From an uncultured Bacteroidales bacterium (GTDB taxonomy: Bacteria > Bacteroidota > Bacteroidia > Bacteroidales > Muribaculaceae): a DNA stretch of 64,000 nt. The notes under the pieces were generated by a model. That model worked only from the letters and a program-made list of their open reading frames with translations, was not told the DNA's origin and did no database searches. Of the stretch, positions 40,571 to 64,000 are shown in pieces. The DNA lies in NCBI GenBank assembly GCA_902781045.1, contig CACZHT010000003.1, forward strand, positions 1 to 64,000, given 5' to 3'. Position numbers and translations under genes: made by a program. Positions within the stretch are counted from its first letter, which is position 1. Each line of letters opens with the position of its first letter.

Positions 40571-41071
40571 ATGAAGAATATTTTATTGACTATAGTGCTG
40601 GCGCTCACTGCCTGCATGTGGGCAATGGCCGAGACTGTCGATGAGTTCATCACAACGATGAAGAACGACACAACAGTTGAGTGCGTCGAACTAACTCCCG
40701 ATATGCTCAAGGCGATAGTGCAACAGCAGATGGCGCAAGGGGCTGTGCCGAACGATACGGCAATGAAGATACTGCAAGGGGCCAGGACCATACAATTACT
40801 GGACGGTAAACTTCCCGAAGCGAGTGAAGCGATCAATGCATTCAAGGAGCGTCTGGCCGCACTCACGGTCGACGGCCTCGATGAGATGGTCAACACCAAC
40901 GAGAAGGGCGAATTTACCCGCGTGTGGATGCAGGTCGAGGGCGACAAGTGCACCATGATACTTGTGGTCAACGCCGACGAGGACGACCACGACTGGCAAG
41001 TGGTGAAGTTGTGCTGCGACATCAAAATGGACGAGAACTTCAATCTCAACGACTTGATTCACCTGAATTGA
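40571..41071 (+). CDS. Exported DUF4252-like protein
   Basis: The 166-aa protein has a signal peptide (LLTIVLALTACMWAMA) and the DUF4252-like pattern seen in the protein at 42054, with an 'I..L..a+tI..Ld' core (GARTIQLLDGK) and a conserved C terminus. Such proteins often occur beside ECF sigma factors in Bacteroidetes. Its stop overlaps the start of the sigma factor (TGATG), so they are translationally coupled. The function is unknown. Confidence 0.8.
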   Translation: MKNILLTIVLALTACMWAMAETVDEFITTMKNDTTVECVELTPDMLKAIVQQQMAQGAVPNDTAMKILQGARTIQLLDGKLPEASEAINAFKERLAALTVDGLDEMVNTNEKGEFTRVWMQVEGDKCTMILVVNADEDDHDWQVVKLCCDIKMDENFNLNDLIHLN

Positions 41072-50781: not shown

Positions 50782-50854
50782 GCGACAGTAGCTCAGTTGG
50801 TAGAGCGCGACCTTGCCAAGGTCGAGGTCGCGGGTCCGAGTCCCGTCTGTCGCT
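50782..50854 (+). tRNA. tRNA-Gly(GCC), copy 1
   Basis: A 73-nt cloverleaf with acceptor GCGACAG/CTGTCGC, D arm AGCTCAGTTGGTAGAGC, anticodon loop CTTGCCAA and T arm GGGTCCGAGTCCC. The 3' CCA is not encoded. Confidence 0.97.
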
Positions 50855-50881
50855 CAAACAAAGAGTTCTCTTAATTGATTT

Positions 50882-50954
50882 GCGACAGTAGCTCAGTTGG
50901 TAGAGCGCGACCTTGCCAAGGTCGAGGTCGCGGGTCCGAGTCCCGTCTGTCGCT
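50882..50954 (+). tRNA. tRNA-Gly(GCC), copy 2
   Basis: Identical to copy 1 through its 73 nt. No encoded CCA. Confidence 0.97.
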
Positions 50955-50965
50955 CAACAACAATT

Positions 50966-51038
50966 GCGACAATAGCTCAGTTGGTAGAGCGCGACCTTGC
51001 CAAGGTCGAGGTCGCGGGTCCGAGTCCCGTTTGTCGCT
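50966..51038 (+). tRNA. tRNA-Gly(GCC), copy 3
   Basis: Differs from copies 1 and 2 only at the seventh acceptor pair: GCGACAA pairs with TTGTCGC, a compensatory change. No encoded CCA. Confidence 0.97.
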
Positions 51039-51052
51039 CAACATGATGAATT

Positions 51053-51139
51053 GTCCAGGTGGTGGAATTGGTAGACACGCTACTTTGAGGGGGTAGTGGC
51101 CGTAGGGCTGTGTGAGTTCGAATCTCATCTTGGACACCA
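51053..51139 (+). tRNA. tRNA-Leu(GAG)
   Basis: A type II tRNA with a long variable arm. Acceptor GTCCAGG pairs with CTTGGAC, anticodon stem CTACT/GGTAG holds loop TTGAGGG (anticodon GAG), and the T loop has GTTCGAATC. CCA is encoded at 51137-51139, unlike the three Gly tRNAs. Confidence 0.96.
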
Positions 51140-51141
51140 TT

Positions 51142-51195
51142 AGGAAGTGATAGCAAGTTGCAACGCAACAAGTTATCACTTCCTTCTTTTGTTTT
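51142..51195 (+). terminator. Terminator of the tRNA operon
   Basis: AGGAAGTGATA (51142-51152) and TATCACTTCCT (51174-51184) form a perfect 11-bp stem with an inner GTTGC/GCAAC stem, followed by TCTTTTGTTTT. The ~310 bp to 51504 shows no gene or clear signal. Confidence 0.85.
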
Positions 51196-51504
51196 GCCCC
51201 ATATTTTACCCCATATTCCCCATTTTTTATCATAATTTATCGACTGTTATCGGCGATTTTCTCACCTGTGGGCAAGCCCCTATCATCTACTATCTTTCCC
51301 TAACATTTCGACTCTTTCCTCATCTCCCTATCGATAAATCCCAATAGGCTCATTTTCTGAAATGGTCATAGAGCAAAAAGGAGACAAACTGAATTGCCTC
51401 CTTTAAATGTGTGTTTTTCTGTTCAGTTATCTTGCCAGTTCATGGCGCATTCTCAAGGTGAAGATTGCTATCGCAACTGCGACCATCCATTGGTGTAATC
51501 ATTA

Positions 51505-52002
51505 TCACCAACCTGTGCTAGTCCCGATTACACGCCCATATTGATCACGGTAGGTCGTGCTATAGCCGCCTCCAAAATTGGATGTGGTGGTTGCGGTGCC
51601 GGTAGTTCTTCCGTACTGGTCGCGATAAGTCGTTGAGTAACCACCACCATAGTTGCTACTGGTTGTAGCGGAGCCCGTGCTCCGTCCATACTGGTCGCGG
51701 TAGGTGGTCGAATAGCCCCCTCCATAGCTACTGCTGGTTGATGCTGACCCCGTGCTCCGTCCATACTGGTCACGGTAGGAGGTCGAGTAACCGCCGCCAT
51801 AGTTGCTGCTGGTTGACGCTGAGCCTGTGCTTCTTCCATACTGGTCGCGGTAGGTGGTTGAGTAACCGCCTCCATAGTTGCTGCTTGTTGACGATGTTCC
51901 AGTTGTTGAGCCATATTGGTTGCGGTAAGTGACATTGTACTGAGCGAAACCAGATACTGCTGCAATCATGCTAACGATGAGAGTCAAAATAATCTTTTTC
52001 AT
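51505..52002 (-). CDS. Exported Tyr/Gly/Ser-rich tandem-repeat protein
   Basis: The 165-aa protein has a signal peptide (MIAAVSGFAQ) and then about six 25-residue repeats of the form Y-R-D-Q-Y-G-R-S-T-G-S-x3-S-S-N-Y-G-G-G-Y-S-T-T. The DNA repeats are 75 bp with silent and conservative differences, so the protein sequence is under selection. Low-complexity Y/G/S/Q repeats of this type may assemble into fibres; this is an inference. A conserved 45-bp element lies 27 nt upstream of the start. Confidence 0.85.
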   Translation of the reverse strand: MKKIILTLIVSMIAAVSGFAQYNVTYRNQYGSTTGTSSTSSNYGGGYSTTYRDQYGRSTGSASTSSNYGGGYSTSYRDQYGRSTGSASTSSSYGGGYSTTYRDQYGRSTGSATTSSNYGGGYSTTYRDQYGRTTGTATTTSNFGGGYSTTYRDQYGRVIGTSTGW

Positions 52003-52029
52003 TGTTGTAAGTTTTAAATATGAGTAATT

Positions 52030-52074
52030 TTGTTTCTTTACCCTTTATGTCAAATAGTGGAAAAAGGTTAACAA
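52030..52074 (-). promoter_or_regulatory. Conserved 45-bp promoter-like element, copy a
   Basis: The minus strand reads TTGTTAACCTT, then 14 nt, then CATAAAGGGTAAAG and AAACAA. It is identical in layout to the copies at 52795-52839 and 54537-54581. Confidence 0.8.
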
Positions 52075-52086
52075 TATCTCAGTATT

Positions 52087-52404
52087 TTATTTGTAACACC
52101 ACTTGCATGGCGTTCTTCCCATGCTCTGGGCTTTGCTGATTGAGACCGCCAGTATCTCTCCTGAGCAACTGTTGAGTCCCCGGCAATGAGAAGTTTTGTG
52201 AAACCGCTTGGATTGCGGTCCGGTGCAGATATAAACCGTTTGTTCTGTTTGCGAATTGCCAATGGCGCACTCTCTAATGAACGCCACTGTAGTCAAGTTA
52301 ACATCATTGGGGGCTTGGGCATTGGCTTGGTTGTCACATGAAGAAAGATCTATCGCCAACGTGACTATTGCCACAATCATCATTATGAGTTTTGCTCGTT
52401 TCAT
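52087..52404 (-). CDS. Putative lipoprotein with C-terminal Cys/His domain
   Basis: The 105-aa product starts at 52404 (MKRAKLIMMIVAIVTLAIDLSSCDN shown by its landmarks: lipoprotein box LSSC). The C-terminal domain reads VYICTGPQSKRFHKTSHCRG and ends TPCKWCY. It recurs in many Bacteroidetes small proteins and has the look of a zinc-binding fold (H-x4-C, then C-x2-C). The longer upstream frame is non-coding. It is the third gene of the 52.1-52.8 kb set, ending 8 nt after the preceding gene. Confidence 0.8.
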   Translation of the reverse strand: MKRAKLIMMIVAIVTLAIDLSSCDNQANAQAPNDVNLTTVAFIRECAIGNSQTEQTVYICTGPQSKRFHKTSHCRGLNSCSGEILAVSISKAQSMGRTPCKWCYK

Positions 52405-52411
52405 TGTTTGT

Positions 52412-52603
52412 TTACCAGATAAAGAAAATCCACAATAAGCCCTTAATCTCCGACAAGATAGTGTCGATGAAGATAATCTCAAGAAGTGAGTCGCCGGCTC
52501 TGCAATAGTCAATGAAGAACACAAGCGTCATGATCTGGCTTACAATGAAGTATGCCCAAAGAAGAAAGCCCAAAATGGCACTGGATGTATCGTTGTTTCC
52601 CAT
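52412..52603 (-). CDS. Small membrane protein
   Basis: The 63-aa product has two hydrophobic segments (AILGFLLWAYFIVSQIMTLVFF and IKGLLWIFFIW). It lies 13 nt downstream of a 49-aa membrane protein and just upstream of the lipoprotein, in the same direction. No family is recognised. Confidence 0.65.
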   Translation of the reverse strand: MGNNDTSSAILGFLLWAYFIVSQIMTLVFFIDYCRAGDSLLEIIFIDTILSEIKGLLWIFFIW

Positions 52604-52616
52604 AATTCATTTGTTT

Positions 52617-52766
52617 TTAACCGTTCATACCTGCAATGAGTAAGGCAACCCAAGCTGCCACAATAAGTTTCCCGAGAAGTCCTGCCTTGGCGAACATTGA
52701 CAACGGCCAGAGTGGGCCAAATAGAATCGCCAAAATGACGTAGATGATAATCGCTGCTGTTAACAT
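52617..52766 (-). CDS. 49-aa membrane protein
   Basis: The frame reads MLTAAIIIYVILAILFGPLW, then PLSMFAKAGLLGKLIVAAWVALLIAGMNG. It has two hydrophobic segments and starts 28 nt after a conserved promoter-like element. Position and composition suggest it is a real gene heading the small operon 52087-52766. Function is unknown. Confidence 0.6.
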   Translation of the reverse strand: MLTAAIIIYVILAILFGPLWPLSMFAKAGLLGKLIVAAWVALLIAGMNG

Positions 52767-52794
52767 AGTTTTGTCGTTTTATTTGTTATATAAA

Positions 52795-52839
52795 TTGTTT
52801 CTTTGCCCTTTATGAAAAAATCCCTGTCAAGGTTAACAA
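52795..52839 (-). promoter_or_regulatory. Conserved 45-bp promoter-like element, copy b
   Basis: TTGTTAACCTT, 14 nt, CATAAAGGGCAAAG and AAACAA on the minus strand, 28 nt upstream of the 49-aa gene. Confidence 0.8.
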
Positions 52840-52887
52840 CCTCAACAGAGATTTTTGTCCTGAAACTTTATCAAGGCTTATGTCGCT

Positions 52888-53862
52888 TCATGCCGGCGCC
52901 GTCTTCACCCTATTGAAGGCATTAGAGAATTGAGCGATTCTAACTCGCTGAGCGCCCTTAATGGCTGCTTCATAATCACATCCTTTATCTACCAACTTGC
53001 TCACCACCACAAACAGTTCCAGACTCATGAGCAGGACGAAGAAGACCGCATAGAACGCTCCAGCAAGTTTTCGAGTAGTGATAATTGTCCACATTGCCTC
53101 AAGTTCTTCCAAGAAACCAACGCTGGCTTTGCATTCCTTGCGTGTGTCCTCTTCTACGTTTTGCTTCTTCTGAGTCCATGTTTGTTCTTGACCACGGAGA
53201 TTCTCAACTATCTTGTTGTTTCCTTCCAGAATCGCCTGCTTGGGATTGACCACTTGCGTTGTCGTAACCGATGGATTGTTCACTGTTTTGATTTGACCGT
53301 TAACCACCAGCTTTGATTGAGAGTTTGTGACTGACTTCTGGGTGATAAACGGATTTGCATTGATGTCGGCCTGAAGTTCGGCATTCAGTCGGTCGATTGA
53401 GTCAATCTCCATTCGTAGTGATGTCAGTTTCTCGTCTATGATGCGAACCCTCTGCTTTACCAGTTCTTCTACCTGGATTTCGATGATATTTGACATCTGC
53501 TTGTCAATGTCCTTTCCGAACATGGTTTGGTCGAAAATAGTTGAACCGATAACTGCCATAATCAGTGCGATGATGGCTCGGAAAGCGACCATTGAGACTG
53601 TTTTCTCACTTGTCAGGATAATCTGGCGCTCTATCATAATGACAATAGTGATGAAGAACAGCGAAACGAAACAGCACGCCCACCAAGGAAGTCCGATATA
53701 ACGCTGCGCAAAGCAGAAACCTGTCACGCCCCATATCAGGATGAGGATTAATAATGCTGATGTGTATTTGCTCAGCTGGCACTTGCTCGCTTCGGAGCAT
53801 TGTGATAATACGGTTGAACTCCAACCTGTGAGTATGCAACCTAGTTTTGTCCACCAATTCAT
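52888..53862 (-). CDS. DUF4407 membrane protein
   Basis: The 324-aa protein has three hydrophobic segments in its first 120 residues (YTSALLILILIWGVTGFCFAQ, WWACCFVSLFFITIVIMIE, AFRAIIALIMAVIGSTIF), a coiled-coil region (residues about 130-240), and a last membrane segment near residue 275 (AFYAVFFVLLMSLELFVVV). This matches DUF4407. Members occur beside signalling and defence genes in Bacteroidetes. It starts 31 nt after the 208-aa gene and shares its promoter element. Confidence 0.88.
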   Translation of the reverse strand: MNWWTKLGCILTGWSSTVLSQCSEASKCQLSKYTSALLILILIWGVTGFCFAQRYIGLPWWACCFVSLFFITIVIMIERQIILTSEKTVSMVAFRAIIALIMAVIGSTIFDQTMFGKDIDKQMSNIIEIQVEELVKQRVRIIDEKLTSLRMEIDSIDRLNAELQADINANPFITQKSVTNSQSKLVVNGQIKTVNNPSVTTTQVVNPKQAILEGNNKIVENLRGQEQTWTQKKQNVEEDTRKECKASVGFLEELEAMWTIITTRKLAGAFYAVFFVLLMSLELFVVVSKLVDKGCDYEAAIKGAQRVRIAQFSNAFNRVKTAPA

Positions 53863-53893
53863 AGTTCAATGTTTTTACTGGTTCAACAAATGA

Positions 53894-54520
53894 TTAAGCG
53901 GTCTCACGAGTTTTCGAAGAAGTGGGCATGGCCACAAACTCCGGCATCTTGACGGCCGACCCTGTTGCAGACATGGCTATGGTGGCGATACCTCTCAAGA
54001 ATCCGCAATCATACGATTGCAGTGGAACGGAAGCCTCATTGGCATTGTTTCGGAAATCTCTTTCCAATCGTTCCAACTCTACTTTGTGAGTTGCAATGAT
54101 TGACAACTGTTTCTCAAGATCTGCAACCGTAGTAATCAATCCGGCAGCATTGCAAGTTTCCAGCCTTGTCTCAATTTCCCGCTTCATCACGTCATAATTT
54201 AGGTTAATCTCACGGAACACCATCAGGATCTTGTTTCTGATGATATTCATGTTGATTTCCTTGAAAGTAAGGTCGCTCTTGACCATTGCATCATTAAAGC
54301 CTTTATCCTCATAGTTCTTGTGCAAGTAGCCGTAGATTACATCTATCGGCCAGCCTGTGGCATAAGAAACTGTCAAGGTGTTACCCTTGCTTGTCGTGTT
54401 CTCTTGCTCCGCCTCACTTACAGATTCAACGGGCAGTTCGGGAGTCCCCATTAACGAGGACATCATGGGTGTAAATTCGGCACCATCGCTCTTTCTGTTG
54501 AAGAAATTTAGAATGCTCAT
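53894..54520 (-). CDS. Helical protein of unknown function, partner of DUF4407
   Basis: The 208-aa protein has a variable N-terminal region (residues 1-45), a short domain (VSYATGWPIDVIYGYLHKNYEDKGFNDAM), then a helical coiled-coil region (NIIRNKILMVFREINLNYDVMKREIETRLE) and a hydrophobic C-terminal stretch (GFLRGIATIAMSATGSAV). I do not recognise the family. The Bacteroidetes pair DUF4407 plus helical protein seems to be a unit. A conserved element lies 16 nt upstream. Confidence 0.75.
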   Translation of the reverse strand: MSILNFFNRKSDGAEFTPMMSSLMGTPELPVESVSEAEQENTTSKGNTLTVSYATGWPIDVIYGYLHKNYEDKGFNDAMVKSDLTFKEINMNIIRNKILMVFREINLNYDVMKREIETRLETCNAAGLITTVADLEKQLSIIATHKVELERLERDFRNNANEASVPLQSYDCGFLRGIATIAMSATGSAVKMPEFVAMPTSSKTRETA

Positions 54521-54536
54521 AATTGTCTAGTTTTAG

Positions 54537-54581
54537 TTGTTACTTTGCCCTTTATGACAGAATCAAGGCAAAGGTTAACAA
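54537..54581 (-). promoter_or_regulatory. Conserved 45-bp promoter-like element, copy c
   Basis: TTGTTAACCTT, 14 nt, CATAAAGGGCAAAG and TAACAA on the minus strand, 16 nt upstream of the 208-aa gene. Confidence 0.8.
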
Positions 54582-54648
54582 CCAAAACAAAAAAGTGGGG
54601 ATGTTAATTGTCACACCTCCACCATTATGGTCAGTTATAGCCAAGTGA

Positions 54649-57600
54649 CTAATCTAACGCATCCAACAAAATCCACGATGCCCAGTAAGATGGGTCGGCA
54701 AATATCTTATTGCCATTTTCATCAACATATTCTCTCACAAACTTTTGAGCAAGCTTTAATGATTTTTGCTTGGTTTCTCCAGAAACATAGTGACGATAGA
54801 ATTCTTTCATTAACAATCTTGTTGAAAAGTCGTCAACCTTCCATAAACTCATCAAGATGCTTCTAGTTCCGGCCTTCTTGAAACCACGCTGCAAGCCGAA
54901 AACACCGTCACCTTTAATATCGCCCAGACCCGTCTGACATGCAGAGAGCACCAAAAGGTCGAGGCCTCGCAGGTCAAGAAATGAGATTTCTTGGGCGGTG
55001 AGCACGCCGTCGTCAACTCCGGCGGGTATCTCAATGCCGTCAAACGTATTTTGGGCACCGACAAAGAGCAGGCCAGAGCGAGTCATCGCCTTGTCCTCGA
55101 CATAACGTGGTTGGTTATCATCTAACCGCACGAAACGCAACCGCATATCTTCTTTTTTCGTTTTTGCCGTCGAATCATTCCAGAAGAAGCCATGCGTGGC
55201 GATGTGGAGGATTCGTTTCTTTTCTCCTGATAACTCCTTGAACGAGGCCTCTGTAGCATTATCACTGACCAATTTGCTTACAATTGTATTACCTTTGACC
55301 AAAAGGGTCTCAATCTCATTAGCTTCAGTCAATGTGCCTGGCAGGTATGACCATTTCGTACCACGATAGTTAGTGGAATCCGCATTGAAGCCACGCAAGA
55401 TATATTGTGATTCAGCATCACTCTTAGGAGTGCCCATTGATGCCACATTGGTGTTATATTTGATGCCACCATACACAACCGCCCCGTTCGACATAGTCTC
55501 ATCTTGAGAGATTGCCAACTCACGGGTCGAAGACAGACGATAGAGGTTGAACCGGTCGCTTATCATACAGTCCTGTTCCCAATGTGGCATCGACTCAATG
55601 GCAATGTTGTACAGCTCGCCGCTTGGAGAGAAGTAAATGTTCTTAACCCCCTCCAGTTCTTCTGCCATTCTACCCCACACCAACCTACTAAACACGTTGC
55701 TCGAGTAACAGATTGACTTGATGGCATTCATCTCACTATCCTCAAAGAGTCTGACCATGTGGGGCGCATCATAACCTTTTCTCACTGTCAGGGCAATATT
55801 CATCGTATTATTAGTAGCTATAACTGGAAATGACAAAAACTCTACAGCAATATCATTGTCACCTAGTTTAGCCTGAACATCCTTCCAAGTCAACTTTAGG
55901 TTATGCATGAAATTGCCATATGTCTTAGACATACGCACGAGATCTGCCTCGAGTCTATCGGCAACATCCTCCAATGAATCTGTATTAACGTGCCTCTCAG
56001 CAATAGGTCGCTCATAGAGTTTATTCAACCATGACCAGGTGGCTTTTAGCTCATTAAACATCGCTACTGTGGTTTCATCTCCATTCTCTATAATTAACTT
56101 TCGCATCTCCGTTTCGGATGCAAGTATCAATCCCTTTGAAAACAAGCAAGATTTGTCATACAGATCGCCAACTAGATTGTGATTTTCCTCCATTGCCATT
56201 ATCAATGGGTACATTATATTATATAAGTAGTAGTATTTATTCCACAAAACACTTCTTTGCACTGATGTCAGACTTGAAAGAGAGGATAATAAATATGACT
56301 GTGATATATCCATACAATCAACTAGATACTTTATTGCTTTCTTTGGGTCGATACTAAAGTAACACTGTGAAAGAAAACACAATATCCCTGCATTGTCAGG
56401 ATGCCGCTCACCTAAAGAACGTTTACGAATCTCCAAAGCATGCAAGGATAGTTCTATTGCCTGATTATACTCTCCGATATCTGCATATTCTGAACCAAGG
56501 TTTGCTAATAAAACCGCATAAAAAGGATTATTTTCTCCAAGTGCTTTTTTTATGGCTTCCAATGCTTGTGTCCTTATTTCAATTGCTTTAGTATGGTTTC
56601 CCATCCTATCATAATGACTTGCAATATTATTCAGAGATATAGCATAGTCTGGGTGTTGTTCTCCTAGTAATTGTTTTCTTATTTTCAATGCAAGAGAATC
56701 TAATTCTTTTGCTTTAACTAAATCACCTAAACAGGAGTAATAACTGGCTACGTTACTTAGAGAGGAAGCATAAAGTGGATGAGAATCACCTAAAACTTGC
56801 TTGCGTATTTCCAAAGCACGTTTTCCGAGTTCAACAGCCTTGGTGTAATCACCTATATTTGAGTAATCAGAAGCTAAATTGGCCAACGATGTCGCGTAGT
56901 CAGGATGAGTTTCTCCAAGTATTTGTTTTCGTATTTCCAATGCTTGTGTGCCTAATTCAATACCTTTGGAATAATTCCCCATATGAGAATAGCATGAGGC
57001 CAAATTACTCAATGTTTTCGCATAGTCAGGATGTCGGTTCCCTATTATTTGTTTACGAATCTCCAACACTTGTGTCATCAGATTAATTGCTATAGGATAA
57101 TTTCCTATAAACGCATAATTTGAAGCTTGGTTGCTCAATGATATGGCATATTCAAGATTGTTCTCGCCTAAAATAACTTTGCGAATTTGTAATGCTTGCG
57201 CTGCTAATTCAATCGCTTTCTTATAATCACCTAAATTCGCATACTCAGTTGCCAGATTATTCAGCGATAGCGCATAGTCGGGATGATTCTCACCCAATAC
57301 TTGTTTTCGAATATCCAAAGCCTTTTTGCCCAATTCGATGGCTTTGGAATAATCACCATAATAGGAATAGTATGTGGCCAAATTACACAATGATGAGGCA
57401 TAGTCCGGATGAGTTTGTCCAAGGGCATCTTTTTGAATCTCCAAGACCTGAGTTCCTAATTCTATTGCTTTTTCGTAATTCCCCATATGAGAATAGCTTA
57501 AAGCCAAATTATTCATTGATATGGCAAAGTCAGGATGTTGCTCTCCCAAAACTTGTCTATATATCTCCATTGCTTTTGTCTTGAAAACAACGCTATTGGC

Positions 57601-58593
57601 ATAATCACCTAGGTTGTCATAATAGATGCCGAGTTTGCTTAGCCATTCGGCATAATCGAGTTCGTTCATGCCTAGTATATCCTTATCAATATCCATGTAT
57701 TGAGTATCCAATTCAACTGTTTTTGCAAGGTTTCCTAGTGATGCGTGATAACTCGCGAGATTGCTTGATAAGGCAATGTAATCGGGATGGTTTTCACCAA
57801 GAATTGACTTTATTATTTCCAATGCTTTGGCACCCAATTCTAAAGCCTTTGTATAGTTGCCAAGAGAGGAATAATTAATTGCAAGATAGTTCAAAGTGGT
57901 TGCATAATCTATATGATTCTCTCCGAGAAGTTGCTTTCTAATTACCAATGATTTGGTTCCTAGTTCAATAGCCTTTTCATATTGCCCAAGAGCAGAATAA
58001 TAACATGATAAATCATTCAACGAAGTCGCATAATCTGGATGGTTTTCGCCAAGAACCTGTTTTTGTATCTTCAATGCCTGTGTTCCTGTTTCAATTGCTT
58101 GAGTGTAATCCCCAAGTGCATAGTAATAACAAGCCAAAAAGTTCAATGTTGCTGCAACTTCGGAATTTGTCTCGCCGAATAGTTGCTTTTGTATATATAG
58201 AGCTTTCTTCCCGTTTTCTATTGCTCTTTCAGAATCCCCAATAGCATAATAGTAACTAGCCAAATATTTCAAAGACATCGCATTTTCAGGATGAATCTCT
58301 CCGAGTAAACGTTTTCGAATTTCCAATGCTTGAGATTCTGATTCAATTGCTTTTGAATAGTTACCGACGTTTGAATAGCATTCAGCCATTACTCCCAAAA
58401 TAATTGCAGAAGCATACTCTTCTCCCATATTAGACGAAAGAATCAACAACTTGTTTCCAACGTCTATTGCTTGTTCATTTTGTCCTGCATCTCGATACTG
58501 GATAAAATCGTTTATTAGAGATTCAATATTTTGTGCAGACGCAAAGGTAAAGCAACATACAAATAAGATAACGGATAGCAGTAAGTTTTTCAT
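54649..58593 (-). CDS. Exported TPR-CHAT protein
   Basis: The 1314-aa protein has a signal peptide (LLSVILFVCCFTFASAQ), then about 18 kinesin-light-chain-type TPRs of 42 residues each (YSKAIELGTQALEIRKQILG and variants, residues about 40-810), and a C-terminal CHAT domain. The caspase-like catalytic pair appears intact: His in ILHIATHGFFWNDS and Cys in LVLSACQTGLG, followed by GVFGLQRGFKKAGTRSILMS. CHAT domains are cysteine peptidases related to separase and gasdermin-cutting enzymes. An exported one is unusual. It is AT-rich and follows a second TPR-CHAT gene. Confidence 0.93.
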   Translation of the reverse strand: MKNLLLSVILFVCCFTFASAQNIESLINDFIQYRDAGQNEQAIDVGNKLLILSSNMGEEYASAIILGVMAECYSNVGNYSKAIESESQALEIRKRLLGEIHPENAMSLKYLASYYYAIGDSERAIENGKKALYIQKQLFGETNSEVAATLNFLACYYYALGDYTQAIETGTQALKIQKQVLGENHPDYATSLNDLSCYYSALGQYEKAIELGTKSLVIRKQLLGENHIDYATTLNYLAINYSSLGNYTKALELGAKALEIIKSILGENHPDYIALSSNLASYHASLGNLAKTVELDTQYMDIDKDILGMNELDYAEWLSKLGIYYDNLGDYANSVVFKTKAMEIYRQVLGEQHPDFAISMNNLALSYSHMGNYEKAIELGTQVLEIQKDALGQTHPDYASSLCNLATYYSYYGDYSKAIELGKKALDIRKQVLGENHPDYALSLNNLATEYANLGDYKKAIELAAQALQIRKVILGENNLEYAISLSNQASNYAFIGNYPIAINLMTQVLEIRKQIIGNRHPDYAKTLSNLASCYSHMGNYSKGIELGTQALEIRKQILGETHPDYATSLANLASDYSNIGDYTKAVELGKRALEIRKQVLGDSHPLYASSLSNVASYYSCLGDLVKAKELDSLALKIRKQLLGEQHPDYAISLNNIASHYDRMGNHTKAIEIRTQALEAIKKALGENNPFYAVLLANLGSEYADIGEYNQAIELSLHALEIRKRSLGERHPDNAGILCFLSQCYFSIDPKKAIKYLVDCMDISQSYLLSSLSSLTSVQRSVLWNKYYYLYNIMYPLIMAMEENHNLVGDLYDKSCLFSKGLILASETEMRKLIIENGDETTVAMFNELKATWSWLNKLYERPIAERHVNTDSLEDVADRLEADLVRMSKTYGNFMHNLKLTWKDVQAKLGDNDIAVEFLSFPVIATNNTMNIALTVRKGYDAPHMVRLFEDSEMNAIKSICYSSNVFSRLVWGRMAEELEGVKNIYFSPSGELYNIAIESMPHWEQDCMISDRFNLYRLSSTRELAISQDETMSNGAVVYGGIKYNTNVASMGTPKSDAESQYILRGFNADSTNYRGTKWSYLPGTLTEANEIETLLVKGNTIVSKLVSDNATEASFKELSGEKKRILHIATHGFFWNDSTAKTKKEDMRLRFVRLDDNQPRYVEDKAMTRSGLLFVGAQNTFDGIEIPAGVDDGVLTAQEISFLDLRGLDLLVLSACQTGLGDIKGDGVFGLQRGFKKAGTRSILMSLWKVDDFSTRLLMKEFYRHYVSGETKQKSLKLAQKFVREYVDENGNKIFADPSYWASWILLDALD

Positions 58594-58682
58594 CTTCAGT
58601 TCAGGAATTCTGATTTACGAAGCATTAACTACGATAATAGTTTGCTACTATTTATTCAACAATGCAAATAACAATAAACATC

Positions 58683-61600
58683 TTAATCTAACATGATGAA
58701 ACCTGCCCAGTAATACGGGTCGGGGTATAGAGTTTTCACGTAGTTCATGGCTTCTTTAAGTGCCTGGTGGCGCTCTATGCCGGCCATTAATCCCCTATAA
58801 AACAGAGTCATGAGAATTGCCGTTGACTCATCGGGAACCTTCCAAAGGCTCATCACAACGGTTTGTGCACCCGCCTTTTTGAATGCACGCTGTAGTCCTA
58901 GCACACCTTCTACTGGGTCGACTTTTCCTCGAGCCGTCTCACAAGCCGATAGTACAACCAACTCGGTATTTGATAAATCCAAACGAGAAATCTCATCGGC
59001 AGTCAATACGCCATCTTCAACATTCTCCAAGTTGAAATTGCCTGTCCAAGCATTATTGGAACCAGCCATCATCAACCCACACCACATCATATATCCCTCA
59101 CGCTGTGAAAAAGGAGTTGTATCATTGACGTACTTATTACCTTCAGCTTTCTTATAAGTATCTATTACAAAACCATGAGTTGCCAGATGAATAATATCTG
59201 GTGATTTACCATCGTAACTCTTGAACGCCTCTTCGCTTCCTTCTCTACCTTCCCATTTCTTAACAATCACGTTGCCAATACTAAGGGTGGAACTTATACT
59301 ATCAATCTCATTCTTAGTATATGGCAATAAGCCCCAACGCCCTCTATCATTTATTGATCGAGAAGCGAGATTATTAGCCACATCAACTCCTGAGAATGCT
59401 TGATACTTTGCACTCTCAATCACCATTTCTGAGGTGGATTCATCGTATGTAATATTTCCATATAATGAGGCACTTAGGAAATCAACATTTAAATGATTCT
59501 TATAATTTGAAATATTCTTTGTTGAAGAAACCCTTACCATATTATATCTATCAAAACATTTGATGCCATAATCATCTTCAATTATATCAAAATTGATGTT
59601 GGAAAGAAATCCTATTGGAGAATAATATACAGTGCAATTAGGCTCCAAGAATTGTATCAGTTTTTCCCACAACAATGAATATAATCTTGTGGCATTATTC
59701 GTATTATATAGATTGTTAATAAATAATTCATCAGGATCTGTATTATAAATGATGTCTTCGACAGAATCAACATCTGCAAGAAGCACGAGTTTTGGGGCGG
59801 AAAAATCTTTTTTCAGCACAAAAGCCCCATAATGCTCTTCCATTTCAGGATAGGTCTGCATAATAGGTACATAAGTAAACTCAATAGCTACTTCATCATC
59901 AGAAAGCGCATCTCTGACCGCCTCCCAGTTTCCAGCACTATCTCTTAGTTCTTCAGCTAAATTGGGGATAGATGCTATGATTTCCCGCTCCAACTCATTT
60001 AAATGATTTAATGAGTCATGCGTCTCAGACGAAGATGTGGATTTTCTGAATAAAGTACCTCGATAGTTCTTGAATTCTTGATATTTAGATTTTAGAGAAG
60101 GACTGCCATCGTTCATAATATATTCATCAATATAACTATTGTTATCTAAATACAAATTCCTGCAAAATAAAGTGATGTTATATGCCATTGAAACTGCTTT
60201 GTCATCTATGGATGAATATGCTATTAGGTTGTTTACCATTAACAACTCTTTTGCTATAGTTGACCAATAATTATCACGTTCACTTTCTGTAAAATGAGAT
60301 ATAATCTCAGTACAATTTTCTGTCGCAGTTTTGTTAAAGTCTTGAAGTATTGAAACGGCAAGTTTCTTTTGGTCTGTATTTAAATATGCCAATGCTAGGT
60401 TTTGGAAAACGAGATAATTCTTTTCATTACTGCTACTTTGAATATTCTTAATTAGAGGTATTGCTTCTGCCCATTTGTTCTGTTTCATATAAATGACAGC
60501 AAGATTGTTTGATGCTAATAAGTATGACTCAAAATTACGTTCTTTATTTCCTGGATAGTTAATTATAGATTTGAGAACACTTTCGGCTCCAGAGTAATCA
60601 CCTATTGATTGATAAATCATTGCCTTATTGGACAATAAATTCACAGCACTAGTGTTCTCATATATATTGGAATCCACGTTCTCCGTGAACAACTCTATGG
60701 CTTCGTCATTAAACCATTTGGCAAGGGTGAAATCACCCAGTCCCATATAGCATAGAGATATATTACTGAGAACTTTAATATACTCTATACCAAAATCATG
60801 AATTTCTGAATACAAGGCTAATGCCTTTTTAGCATATTGTATTGCCTCAGAGTAGCGTTTCAAATGACAATTAATGATAGAATACTGACTATTAAAAGCT
60901 GATGAGTATTGAGGCGGTAGAGAGTTAATATTAATCTTCTTCATTGTTTCTTCAATTTCATGCTGCGCTTCGTTTATTTTACCTGCTTCTAAATACGCCG
61001 TACTAAGTGTTGAAGATATACTAATATAGGATAACGTGTCAAGTACAGCTTCACGTTCTTTTGATAACTTCATTTTTAGCAATGATGGTATAGCTTCTGT
61101 ACTCCTTCCAGAAACAATTAAACTCAAACAATCTGACCAACTCAATTCCTCTTTGTCTGAGGAGGTTACATTTATGTCTTGCTCTGAGATTGAATTGGTT
61201 CCAGTAATAAGAATTTCACTACCTTTAATATCATTTTCGATTTGATTTATGAGCTGAGAATCGGGATTTGTTGTGCCTCTATATATTTCAAGTGCAATCT
61301 TTGCTAGTTCTATTCCATCTTTATGTTTGTTGATAGCAGCCAAACAAACAGATTTGTTATATAGAGCTATTGCATACTCTGCCGTGTTCATGCCAATACT
61401 ATCGCCAATTAGCTTAATGTCTCTTTCGATATATGGCAATGCTTCTTTATATTGATGAAGGTCACGAATTAGCACGACACAATAATCATTTAGTGTACTT
61501 ATGTAATTCATGGATTTTTGCGCCTCGGGAACTTTATCATACCAAGAAAGCATCAATCTAAGATAAAAACTTGCCCTATTATAATCCTTTTCTAGGTGAA

Positions 61601-61988
61601 GCATTGCTACATAGTCACTAAGAAACTGTGTATAAAATTCGAGACCTTTGGCATCAATACTCGTAGTGTCATCAGGGACCCATGGAATAATCACTTTCTC
61701 AATATATTCACGATACTGAGAAGTAATAGTGTCAGACTTGTTTGTATCCCAAATTATTGAGGTTAAGACACCCCAACACTCAATAAGCGTAGATGTTATC
61801 TCAGCTTGCTGTGAGTTTTGTAATAGTTGTTCAACATAATTGCGGGCTACGATATCGCCTTCCGACATCCGAATATCTTTTATCTTAGAAACAACCGCTT
61901 TAATTGAATCTCTATCCTGTCCGTAAATTGGAGACGACGTGCAAACAAACAGGAATAGTACTATAATTAATAACCTAAACCTTTTCAT
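58683..61988 (-). CDS. Exported TPR-CHAT protein, second copy
   Basis: The 1101-aa protein has a signal peptide (LLIIVLFLFVCTSSPIYGQ), degenerate TPRs over residues about 100-520, and a C-terminal CHAT domain (His in IIHLATHGFVIDT, Cys in VVLSACETARG). It is clearly a paralogue of the 58593 protein in its last 100 residues (GLQRAFKKAG, MSLWKVPDEST) but has diverged elsewhere. Its start overlaps the stop of the upstream TPR gene by 4 nt, and the two are translationally coupled. Confidence 0.92.
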   Translation of the reverse strand: MKRFRLLIIVLFLFVCTSSPIYGQDRDSIKAVVSKIKDIRMSEGDIVARNYVEQLLQNSQQAEITSTLIECWGVLTSIIWDTNKSDTITSQYREYIEKVIIPWVPDDTTSIDAKGLEFYTQFLSDYVAMLHLEKDYNRASFYLRLMLSWYDKVPEAQKSMNYISTLNDYCVVLIRDLHQYKEALPYIERDIKLIGDSIGMNTAEYAIALYNKSVCLAAINKHKDGIELAKIALEIYRGTTNPDSQLINQIENDIKGSEILITGTNSISEQDINVTSSDKEELSWSDCLSLIVSGRSTEAIPSLLKMKLSKEREAVLDTLSYISISSTLSTAYLEAGKINEAQHEIEETMKKININSLPPQYSSAFNSQYSIINCHLKRYSEAIQYAKKALALYSEIHDFGIEYIKVLSNISLCYMGLGDFTLAKWFNDEAIELFTENVDSNIYENTSAVNLLSNKAMIYQSIGDYSGAESVLKSIINYPGNKERNFESYLLASNNLAVIYMKQNKWAEAIPLIKNIQSSSNEKNYLVFQNLALAYLNTDQKKLAVSILQDFNKTATENCTEIISHFTESERDNYWSTIAKELLMVNNLIAYSSIDDKAVSMAYNITLFCRNLYLDNNSYIDEYIMNDGSPSLKSKYQEFKNYRGTLFRKSTSSSETHDSLNHLNELEREIIASIPNLAEELRDSAGNWEAVRDALSDDEVAIEFTYVPIMQTYPEMEEHYGAFVLKKDFSAPKLVLLADVDSVEDIIYNTDPDELFINNLYNTNNATRLYSLLWEKLIQFLEPNCTVYYSPIGFLSNINFDIIEDDYGIKCFDRYNMVRVSSTKNISNYKNHLNVDFLSASLYGNITYDESTSEMVIESAKYQAFSGVDVANNLASRSINDRGRWGLLPYTKNEIDSISSTLSIGNVIVKKWEGREGSEEAFKSYDGKSPDIIHLATHGFVIDTYKKAEGNKYVNDTTPFSQREGYMMWCGLMMAGSNNAWTGNFNLENVEDGVLTADEISRLDLSNTELVVLSACETARGKVDPVEGVLGLQRAFKKAGAQTVVMSLWKVPDESTAILMTLFYRGLMAGIERHQALKEAMNYVKTLYPDPYYWAGFIMLD

Positions 61989-63697
61989 TTCTTTAGCTCA
62001 CATTCGTTGATATACTTAATGGTATTCTCAATCACGCTACCATTATTTGCCATTTGAAGGTTTTTACTTTTATAAAGATATCTCAATGCAATATCATATT
62101 TTTTTTGCATCATATACGCACGTCCCAGATTATGGTATATTATCCCGACCTCAGGATTTCCCTCTCCATCATTATGAAGTATCAAACTAATAGCCTGGTT
62201 TAAAAACTCAATTGCCTGGTTGTACTCATCACAAATCAGATACGTAAAACCTTTACTTGCAAGATAATCCAATTTTAATTCAACAGATAATATGTTATAT
62301 ATAGTGTCTATTCTATCAAAGACTTTTAATGCATTGGTTAAGTCATGATTTCTACCACAAAGAGTACCATATAAGTTCAAAAATCGTGCCAGCTCATCAT
62401 TGTCATTTTCAACATATAATAAAGGCTTAACCTTGTCTCCATAAAACAAGGCTTCAGAATAATTACCCAATTGAGCATTGATTGCCATAATTGCCTGAAA
62501 AATAGAATACTTTGTTGCGTCGGATGAATCAACTCCCGAATTTATTAACTTATCTTCAAGTTGATAAAGATATGTCAAAGCCATAGATGGATCGCTCTTA
62601 CTATAGTATTCAGATAGACAGCCTAGGGCGTTAATGCTATGTACGACCGCCCCATTCCAGCTCATTTCAAAGTACTTAATAGCATCTTCCGAGTTACCAG
62701 CTGTCCAAAGTCCAAAACCAACAATATCATATAAGTTCTCCTCTCCACGATTCTTGTTTGTTGTAGCATTATAATATTCAACCGCTTCTGGTAAAATAAC
62801 TTTTATTAAATCCACATTGTTTTGAGCCGCAATCAATCTTAAGTAATCTGTATATGCTGTGGCAATTTCCGGTTTATGCTTTGTCATGACTCTGCCTATT
62901 TCTATTAACTGCCAATTAAGGTTTATAGCAGCGATAGTGTCGTTGAACTTATATTGGGCACACATTGCATATAAGTGACAATATAGAATGTAATCATCAT
63001 TATTCTTACCAACATTTGAATTAATAATGTTTAAGATGGATGACATTGTTTCATCCACAATTGCCTTATTTTCAAGAGACATGTTTTCAAAACTTGGTAA
63101 ATCATCAAATAGTTCTTCAACTTGTTCTTGCCAGTTGCCCTTAGATATTTTAAGACTAAGTAACCGTTGATTATATTGTTCCAATTTTCTGATACACGCA
63201 TCTGCCAGTGCTGCTTTTCCTTTATGCTTATATAAGTCAATCAAGTCTGAATAAACTTGTTTTATTATATTACAATCGAAGGATTGAACCTCATCAGTTA
63301 TTATTGCTTTGCGATAATACTTTTCAGCATTCATGAAATCATCAGTTTTCTTATAGCAACTGGCAATGTCATATAACGTTTCCAAATAATTGCAGTCACC
63401 TGAATTGAAGGAAAATCTCATGTATCGTTCGGCTTCTTTCAGGTAGGGGATTGCATTGCTATAGTCCTTTAAGAAATACAAGGAGTATCCCTTGTAAAGG
63501 TTAAACTTCATCTTAACCTGAGAAGATGTGTCTGAAAGGCAGATTCCTTCAATACGATTTAGAGATTCTATCGCCTTATCATATTGTTCATTGTCTATTT
63601 GGACTTTTATTTCCGACAAACCATTGAACTCATTTGCACAAACAGGTGTTGCGCAAATAAGCAATAGTAACAGAAAGATGTATATTCGATTTCGCAT
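61985..63697 (-). CDS. Exported TPR protein
   Basis: The 570-aa protein has a signal peptide (FLLLLLICATPVCAN) and degenerate TPRs throughout (DYSNAIPYLKEAERYM, DDFMNAEKYYRKAII, EYNQAIEFLNQAISLIL, KYDIALRYLYKSKNL). It lacks a CHAT domain. It probably acts as a scaffold or regulator for the TPR-CHAT protein with which it overlaps by 4 nt. It is AT-rich like its neighbours. Confidence 0.9.
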   Translation of the reverse strand: MRNRIYIFLLLLLICATPVCANEFNGLSEIKVQIDNEQYDKAIESLNRIEGICLSDTSSQVKMKFNLYKGYSLYFLKDYSNAIPYLKEAERYMRFSFNSGDCNYLETLYDIASCYKKTDDFMNAEKYYRKAIITDEVQSFDCNIIKQVYSDLIDLYKHKGKAALADACIRKLEQYNQRLLSLKISKGNWQEQVEELFDDLPSFENMSLENKAIVDETMSSILNIINSNVGKNNDDYILYCHLYAMCAQYKFNDTIAAINLNWQLIEIGRVMTKHKPEIATAYTDYLRLIAAQNNVDLIKVILPEAVEYYNATTNKNRGEENLYDIVGFGLWTAGNSEDAIKYFEMSWNGAVVHSINALGCLSEYYSKSDPSMALTYLYQLEDKLINSGVDSSDATKYSIFQAIMAINAQLGNYSEALFYGDKVKPLLYVENDNDELARFLNLYGTLCGRNHDLTNALKVFDRIDTIYNILSVELKLDYLASKGFTYLICDEYNQAIEFLNQAISLILHNDGEGNPEVGIIYHNLGRAYMMQKKYDIALRYLYKSKNLQMANNGSVIENTIKYINECELKK

Positions 63698-63705
63698 ATT
63701 ATTAC

Positions 63706-64000
63706 TTAAGTTAGGGGAACTTGAGAATTGATAATTTGAATCTTATCAAGTTTGCTTGGAGAGATTTTATCCTTCAACATTCTATAGATACTAACCTTGT
63801 TTTTAGTGAATTCACATTTTGGACCAAAAGTAATTGTTTCAATGGCTGATGTGGGTATTCTAAACTCGATATATGGTTTTATGAATCCATTGGATACTCC
63901 AAATCCTTGCTCTAAACTGTGGCTCGCAATTCGCCATTCTTTTTCCGCTGAAAACGAAGGATGCTTATAAGACAATGCTTCGTACAACAAACGTGATAGC
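63706..64000 (-). CDS. DUF2971-family protein, C-terminal part (runs off the right edge)
   Basis: The open frame continues past the window. The visible 98 codons include YKHPSFSAEKEWRIASHS and IETITFGPKCEF, which fit the C-terminal part of the DUF2971 family (K-H-x-x-F-x-x-E-x-E-W-R). Members are cytoplasmic and occur in defence and mobile contexts; their function is unknown. It precedes the TPR/CHAT genes by 8 nt, so it is probably in the same operon. Confidence 0.75.
   Translation of the reverse strand, partial: LSRLLYEALSYKHPSFSAEKEWRIASHSLEQGFGVSNGFIKPYIEFRIPTSAIETITFGPKCEFTKNKVSIYRMLKDKISPSKLDKIQIINSQVPLT

Follow-up and report, generated by a model that had tools for sequence, protein, structure and literature searches.

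Introduction

The closest described systems to the locus reported here are of two kinds. The first comprises the ECF (group IV)/membrane anti-sigma/proteolysis systems, among them sigma-E/RseA with DegS-RseP and sigma-W/RsiW. ECF hallmarks include an AAC at -35 and co-transcription with an anti-sigma; a CGT-type -10 marks the ECFs that were studied first, and the group has since been defined by its sigma2-sigma4 architecture (PMC8103513). The second is found in type III-E CRISPR, where the TPR-CHAT protease Csx29 cleaves Csx30, the inhibitor of CASP-sigma, and where CASP-sigma acts best on three promoters of its own locus (PMC10028731). The housekeeping promoter of Bacteroidota has TAnnTTTG at -7 and TTTG near -33, and as of 2020 no motif was known for any B. 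thetaiotaomicron ECF (PMC7366714).

The locus lies at the end of a 64,000-nucleotide stretch of DNA, the window, from an uncultured Bacteroidales bacterium, and runs on beyond its edge. Like the ECF (group IV) systems, it has a predicted two-domain sigma, an adjacent membrane anti-sigma-like gene, an AAC-type -35 with ECF spacing, what appears to be a small private regulon, and probably exported proteases encoded alongside. It differs from them in its proteases, which are a caspase C14 and TPR-CHAT proteins, in its -10, CATAAA, in the lack of an autoregulatory promoter in its sigma clade (clade A), and in that proteolytic release is only putative. With Craspase/CASP-sigma (Cas7-11, Csx29, Csx30) it shares a TPR-CHAT protease, an ECF sigma and a putative inhibitor in one locus, and three sigma motifs within that locus as the likely main targets, but here the inhibitor would be a membrane protein with TPR, the proteases have predicted signal peptides and there is a second protease, of the caspase type. 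Of the module's proteins none was recognised as a Cas protein, Cas7-11/gRAMP included, window 50800-64000 and L025:1-10000 yielded no CRISPR-like array, and no Csx30 chain appeared among the PDB matches of the inhibitor or of its profile. By this comparison the module is not a member of the Craspase circuit, and would work like it if the proteolytic step we propose holds. The housekeeping TAnnTTTG promoter is used by the same organisms, but its box is missing from the three elements described below.

Results

A first-pass annotation had picked out three 45-bp copies of a two-block element, all on the minus strand and 16-28 nt before start codons, with blocks the same except for one Y and one W position and with different spacers. 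Re-reading the three copies bore this out:

52030..52074, minus strand: putative promoter element 1, TTGTTAACCTT at 52064-52074 (-35), N14, CATAAAGGGTAAAG at 52036-52049 (-10 and start region), AAACAA
52795..52839, minus strand: putative promoter element 2, TTGTTAACCTT at 52829-52839, N14, CATAAAGGGCAAAG at 52801-52814, AAACAA
54537..54581, minus strand: putative promoter element 3, TTGTTAACCTT at 54571-54581, N14, CATAAAGGGCAAAG at 54543-54556, TAACAA

The minus-strand form common to all three is TTGTTAACCTT - 14 nt - CATAAAGGGYAAAGWAACAA. The 14-nt spacers and the flanks of the copies are unrelated, while both blocks are identical outside the Y and W positions. Element 1 ends (52030) 27 nt before the ATG at 52002 of a 165-aa repeat protein, element 2 (52795) 28 nt before the ATG at 52766 of a small membrane protein/lipoprotein operon, and element 3 (54537) 16 nt before the ATG at 54520 of a 208-aa protein. 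The usual TAnnTTTG box, already reported as absent, was found nowhere within 150 nt upstream of these three ATGs. Each of the three copies has AAC - 17 nt - CATAAA, as do nearly all sites of relatives. Reading TGTTAACCTTT as the -35 element and GTCATAAAGG as the -10 element, with 17 nt from AAC to CATA, gives an ECF promoter geometry, and this assignment is well supported by the sequence comparisons.

The element is rare. The pattern TTGTTAACCTT-N14-CATAAAGGG had no match in 100 dinucleotide shuffles of the window. Pattern searches over the 3.68-Mb genome (3,677,148 bases) found GTTAACCTT-N14-CATAAAG three times exactly, never with one mismatch and twice with two; at up to three mismatches the total was near background (24 matches against 16 for the reversed control). 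A looser pattern, GTTWACC-N15..17-CATWAA, returned the same three sites and no others. Random placement in the genome, which the annotation had named as grounds for refutation, is thus not what was found, and all the sites fall in one cluster. As far as is visible, it appears to form a private promoter set limited to three neighbouring gene sets, which are:

51505..52002, minus strand: output gene 1, exported 165-aa protein with YNVTYRDQYG-type repeats and a predicted signal peptide
52617..52766, minus strand: output operon 2 gene 1, 49-aa protein beginning MLTAAI, two predicted membrane segments
52412..52603, minus strand: output operon 2 gene 2, 63-aa membrane protein
52087..52404, minus strand: output operon 2 gene 3, 105-aa Cys-rich predicted lipoprotein
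53894..54520, minus strand: output operon 3 gene 1, 208-aa protein
52888..53862, minus strand: output operon 3 gene 2, DUF4407 membrane protein

The 208-aa protein had no match in Pfam, NCBIfam or PADLOC. In relatives each cluster carries between one and five motif sites, and the genes that follow them mostly encode exported proteins, membrane proteins or the 208-aa/DUF4407 pair. Two relatives (L088, L101) have proteins resembling the 165-aa repeat protein within their motif-bearing loci, and in G286 (L091:270) the motif is followed by a protein beginning MLIAAI, like the 49-aa protein. Judged from such comparisons, the output operons look modular and exchanged between relatives. Different and sometimes larger output sets, with two to five motif sites, were seen in L086, L087, L088, L118, L101 and L089; these sets include exported repeat proteins resembling the 165-aa one, and L089 has a 684-aa helicase-like protein.

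The 208-aa/DUF4407 pair also occurs in Segatella, in another context and with an ordinary TAnnTTTG promoter before the 208-aa gene, which argues that the motif goes with the sigma and not with these two genes. The exact pattern GTTAAC-N15..19-CATA had no match in the loci of 208-aa relatives (L026-L032). The pair seems to be a portable output common to two systems. In four of these loci (L026, L027, L029 and L030, from Segatella/Prevotella) it stands beside genes that look to be of von Willebrand type and tellurite-resistance type.

Between about 66.7 and 51.5 kb every gene lies on the minus strand, and this stretch is a single module with caspase/CHAT proteases. Its upstream part, which ends just upstream of element 3, carries the presumed regulators in this order:

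contig C3 from 65774, minus strand: caspase C14 gene (PF00656, 7.6e-18)
contig C3:65207-65770, minus strand: ECF sigma gene, 187 aa, 1.2 kb beyond the window
contig C3:64443-65195, minus strand: anti-sigma-like gene, 250 aa, beyond the window
63706..64000, minus strand: DUF2971 gene (L025:3707-4447), 3' part, the rest beyond the window
61985..63697, minus strand: 570-aa TPR protein, signal-peptide-like N-terminus
58683..61988, minus strand: second TPR-CHAT-type protein, 1101 aa, signal-peptide-like N-terminus, His/Cys dyad
54649..58593, minus strand: TPR-CHAT protease, 1314 aa, last gene of the regulator operon, signal-peptide-like N-terminus, His/Cys dyad

The genes look like one operon because the gaps between them are, in order, 3, 11, -4, 8, -4 and 89 nt. 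The 1314-aa protein matches CHAT (PF12770, 1.1e-46), ATHG and SAC motifs are present in both TPR-CHAT proteins, and the caspase has a signal-peptide-like N-terminus and intact His/Cys motifs. The DUF2971 protein matches a PADLOC phage-defence candidate family, PDC-S31 (1.8e-15), which hints at a possible defensive role for the module. Three tandem tRNA-like copies, 98-100% identical, adjoin the 51.5-kb end of the module, at window 50790-51043; islands typically integrate at such a place.

The 187-aa protein scores 51 bits against the NCBIfam ECF model TIGR02937 (cut-off 42.9) and has only sigma2 and sigma4, of the ECF type. Pfam Sigma70_r2 is found in all 17 sigma homologues (best 1.1e-7) and is sub-threshold for the 187-aa protein itself; a profile of these 17 matched SigW in the PDB (1.2e-7). 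The best fold matches of its predicted model are AlgU, SigL and sigma-E, all ECF sigmas complexed with anti-sigmas or polymerase, with modest E-values and from a model that is only fair (mean pLDDT 76.6, the linker between the two domains unsure). The -10 here, GTCATAAAGG, has CATAAA and is not of the CGT type. No relatives of this sigma were found in the viral contigs searched. Its 250-aa neighbour, 11 nt away, has a weak NCBIfam antisigma match over residues 20-125 (2.6e-4, below cut-off). A membrane helix is predicted around its residues 105-123, with a TPR-like domain at the C-terminus, and the PDB gave no convincing structural relative for it.

No sigma motif was found upstream of the caspase-sigma operon in clade A. 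TAnnTTTG boxes are present upstream of the caspase both here and in four of the six relatives checked. Because the motif is absent and a housekeeping-type box is present here and in most relatives, the regulator operon is probably constitutive. Positive autoregulation of ECFs is common, not universal, and the autoregulatory motif upstream of the sigma is missing in clade A and present in clades B and C. Motif-like sequences, GTTAACCTTT...CATTA(AG), lie inside the sigma gene at L093:9259, L092:942 and L088:15839 (each on the minus strand), at different codon positions. Since clade A has no upstream autoregulatory promoter, these could possibly be an internal promoter, or plain coincidence.

We surveyed 397 genomes of the family, counting sigma matches of at least 130 bits and motifs with at most one mismatch. 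Ten genomes have the sigma, 12 the motif and eight both (hypergeometric 1.5e-12, a descriptive value, since it ignores shared ancestry), so a scan of related genomes, as the annotation had proposed, shows the motif co-occurring with a close sigma homologue. Within the genus the figures are six, seven and five of 101 genomes. The motif is within 20 kb of the sigma on the same contig in seven of the eight genomes with both. In G164 the counted match falls inside the sigma gene, with a further two-block site 2.7 kb off, and in G286 the motif is on another contig than the sigma, adjoining that contig's end.

Most of the exceptions are contig breaks. The two genomes with a sigma and no motif (G071, G355) have the sigma at contig ends, and among those with a motif and no close sigma, in G232 and G181 the contig with the motif breaks off within the cluster, G328 carries a sigma of clade B, and the match in G150 is possibly due to chance, the reversed control pattern giving three matches in all 397 genomes. 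When 22 clade-A sites were aligned, TGTTAACCTTT and GTCATWAAGG were kept and the spacer was nearly uninformative.

More distant sigmas gave no clear motif in the stretches that we covered, neither the homologues from outside the family (G450, G605, G718; 38-47% identical) nor the clade of G349/G365, which is caspase-linked. When upstream regions were compared in pairs, no shared two-block motif emerged in L028, L085, L090, L092 or L095; L093 and L098 gave nothing but duplicated or coding matches, and L102 gave a weak match. Another caspase-linked sigma/anti-sigma clade is present in the same genus (L098, L102, L119, L120, L125, L127; sigma about 29-36% identical), and no promoter motif was found for it.

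The letters of the motif change with the sigma. Clade B comprises sigmas from eight genomes of the genus, 27-32% identical to the 187-aa sigma and forming one tree clade (support 90/99), with an anti-sigma-like neighbour. GTTTACC-N16-CATWAA occurs beside each clade-B sigma, at between one and three sites; as a rule one site precedes the sigma gene and at least one comes directly behind the anti-sigma-like gene. The exact pattern GTTTACCTTTT-N12-CATWAA was found in nine of the 397 genomes, including all eight with clade B (hypergeometric 6e-16, which again ignores shared ancestry). A third sigma, 38% identical and beside a caspase and a CHAT protein, is found in G156, where five exact TGTTTACATT-N13-TATWAA sites all lie less than 11 kb from the sigma, with none elsewhere in the genome. 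Across the three sigma versions the letters differ and the spacing is constant within one base. This agreement is a stronger argument than the p-values. No recognised caspase or CHAT gene was found near the sigma and anti-sigma in the clade-B loci; the sigma/anti-sigma pair can therefore exist alone, and the proteases are not obligatory in the wider family.

These patterns also bear on other readings of the element. One is an operator, through which a DNA-binding activator or repressor would act on another promoter; TTGTTAACCTTT and AAAGWAACAA would then be the arms of an inverted repeat, and the outer parts are indeed partly complementary in the window (TTGTTaaCcTTT ... AAAGwAACAA). However, across the 22 sites the downstream arm is merely A-rich, and it is GTCATWAAGG that is kept. 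There is no TAnnTTTG box with it, and the two-block spacing is that of ECF promoters. The motif variants track the linked sigma, and in the cluster no further DNA-binding regulator was recognised. We regard an operator as improbable.

It is less probable still that another ECF sigma of the genome reads the promoter. The first-pass annotation had put forward the one at 41071, which lies inside the window; the short gene after it encodes a membrane segment and may be its own anti-sigma. Its nearest matches in other motif-bearing genomes are only 26-37% identical, with none in G286; they are no closer than those in motif-free genomes, one of which holds its best relative (47%). There is no motif near it, whereas the cluster sigma fits in both presence and position. 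This candidate was wrong, and the fitting sigma is that at contig C3:65207-65770, outside the window. The great similarity of the three copies within 2.6 kb might suggest that they have no regulatory role and are relics of a small mobile repeat or of a local duplication that took place recently. This is hardly credible given that their spacers and flanks are unrelated while the blocks are identical, and that the same blocks precede unrelated genes in other genera.

Discussion

The three elements are very probably promoters of one ECF sigma from the same cluster, encoded 1.2 kb past the window edge. The proposal that an alternative-sigma promoter ties the three operons together is supported by the ECF geometry, the restriction of the sites to the cluster, the co-occurrence with the sigma and the way the letters follow the sigma clades.

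How the sigma might be controlled is suggested by its neighbours. A housekeeping promoter would make the regulator operon, probably constitutively. The membrane anti-sigma-like protein would hold the sigma, with its N-terminal domain inside, one membrane helix and its TPR domain outside. On an envelope signal, the exported caspase/CHAT proteases would trigger proteolysis of the anti-sigma-like protein, acting on its outer part. The free sigma would then switch on the secreted repeat protein, the small membrane proteins and lipoprotein, and the 208-aa/DUF4407 pair. Sigma binding, the transcription starts, the signal and the function are all things that we infer, and proteolytic release of the sigma, drawn from analogy, is possible, though we stop short of calling it probable.

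Taken as a whole, the locus may encode a CRISPR-independent relay in Bacteroidales, from caspase/TPR-CHAT proteases through an anti-sigma to an ECF sigma, in which a membrane anti-sigma is cleaved and local envelope operons are turned on. We offer this tentatively, as a proposal that could well prove wrong. We found no account of this module in the literature searched. If the relay is real, signalling from proteases to sigmas would be a wider design, with Craspase as one form of it, coupled to CRISPR.

The comparative evidence assigns a promoter motif to a specific Bacteroidota ECF sigma, and to our knowledge there are few such motif-to-sigma assignments in Bacteroidota. The related sigmas form a natural series in which the letters shift at a fixed geometry, which is useful for working out the ECF specificity code. 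Should the protease step prove right, it would tie bacterial caspases and CHAT proteases to transcription without CRISPR, in a role that could be tested directly through the three output operons.
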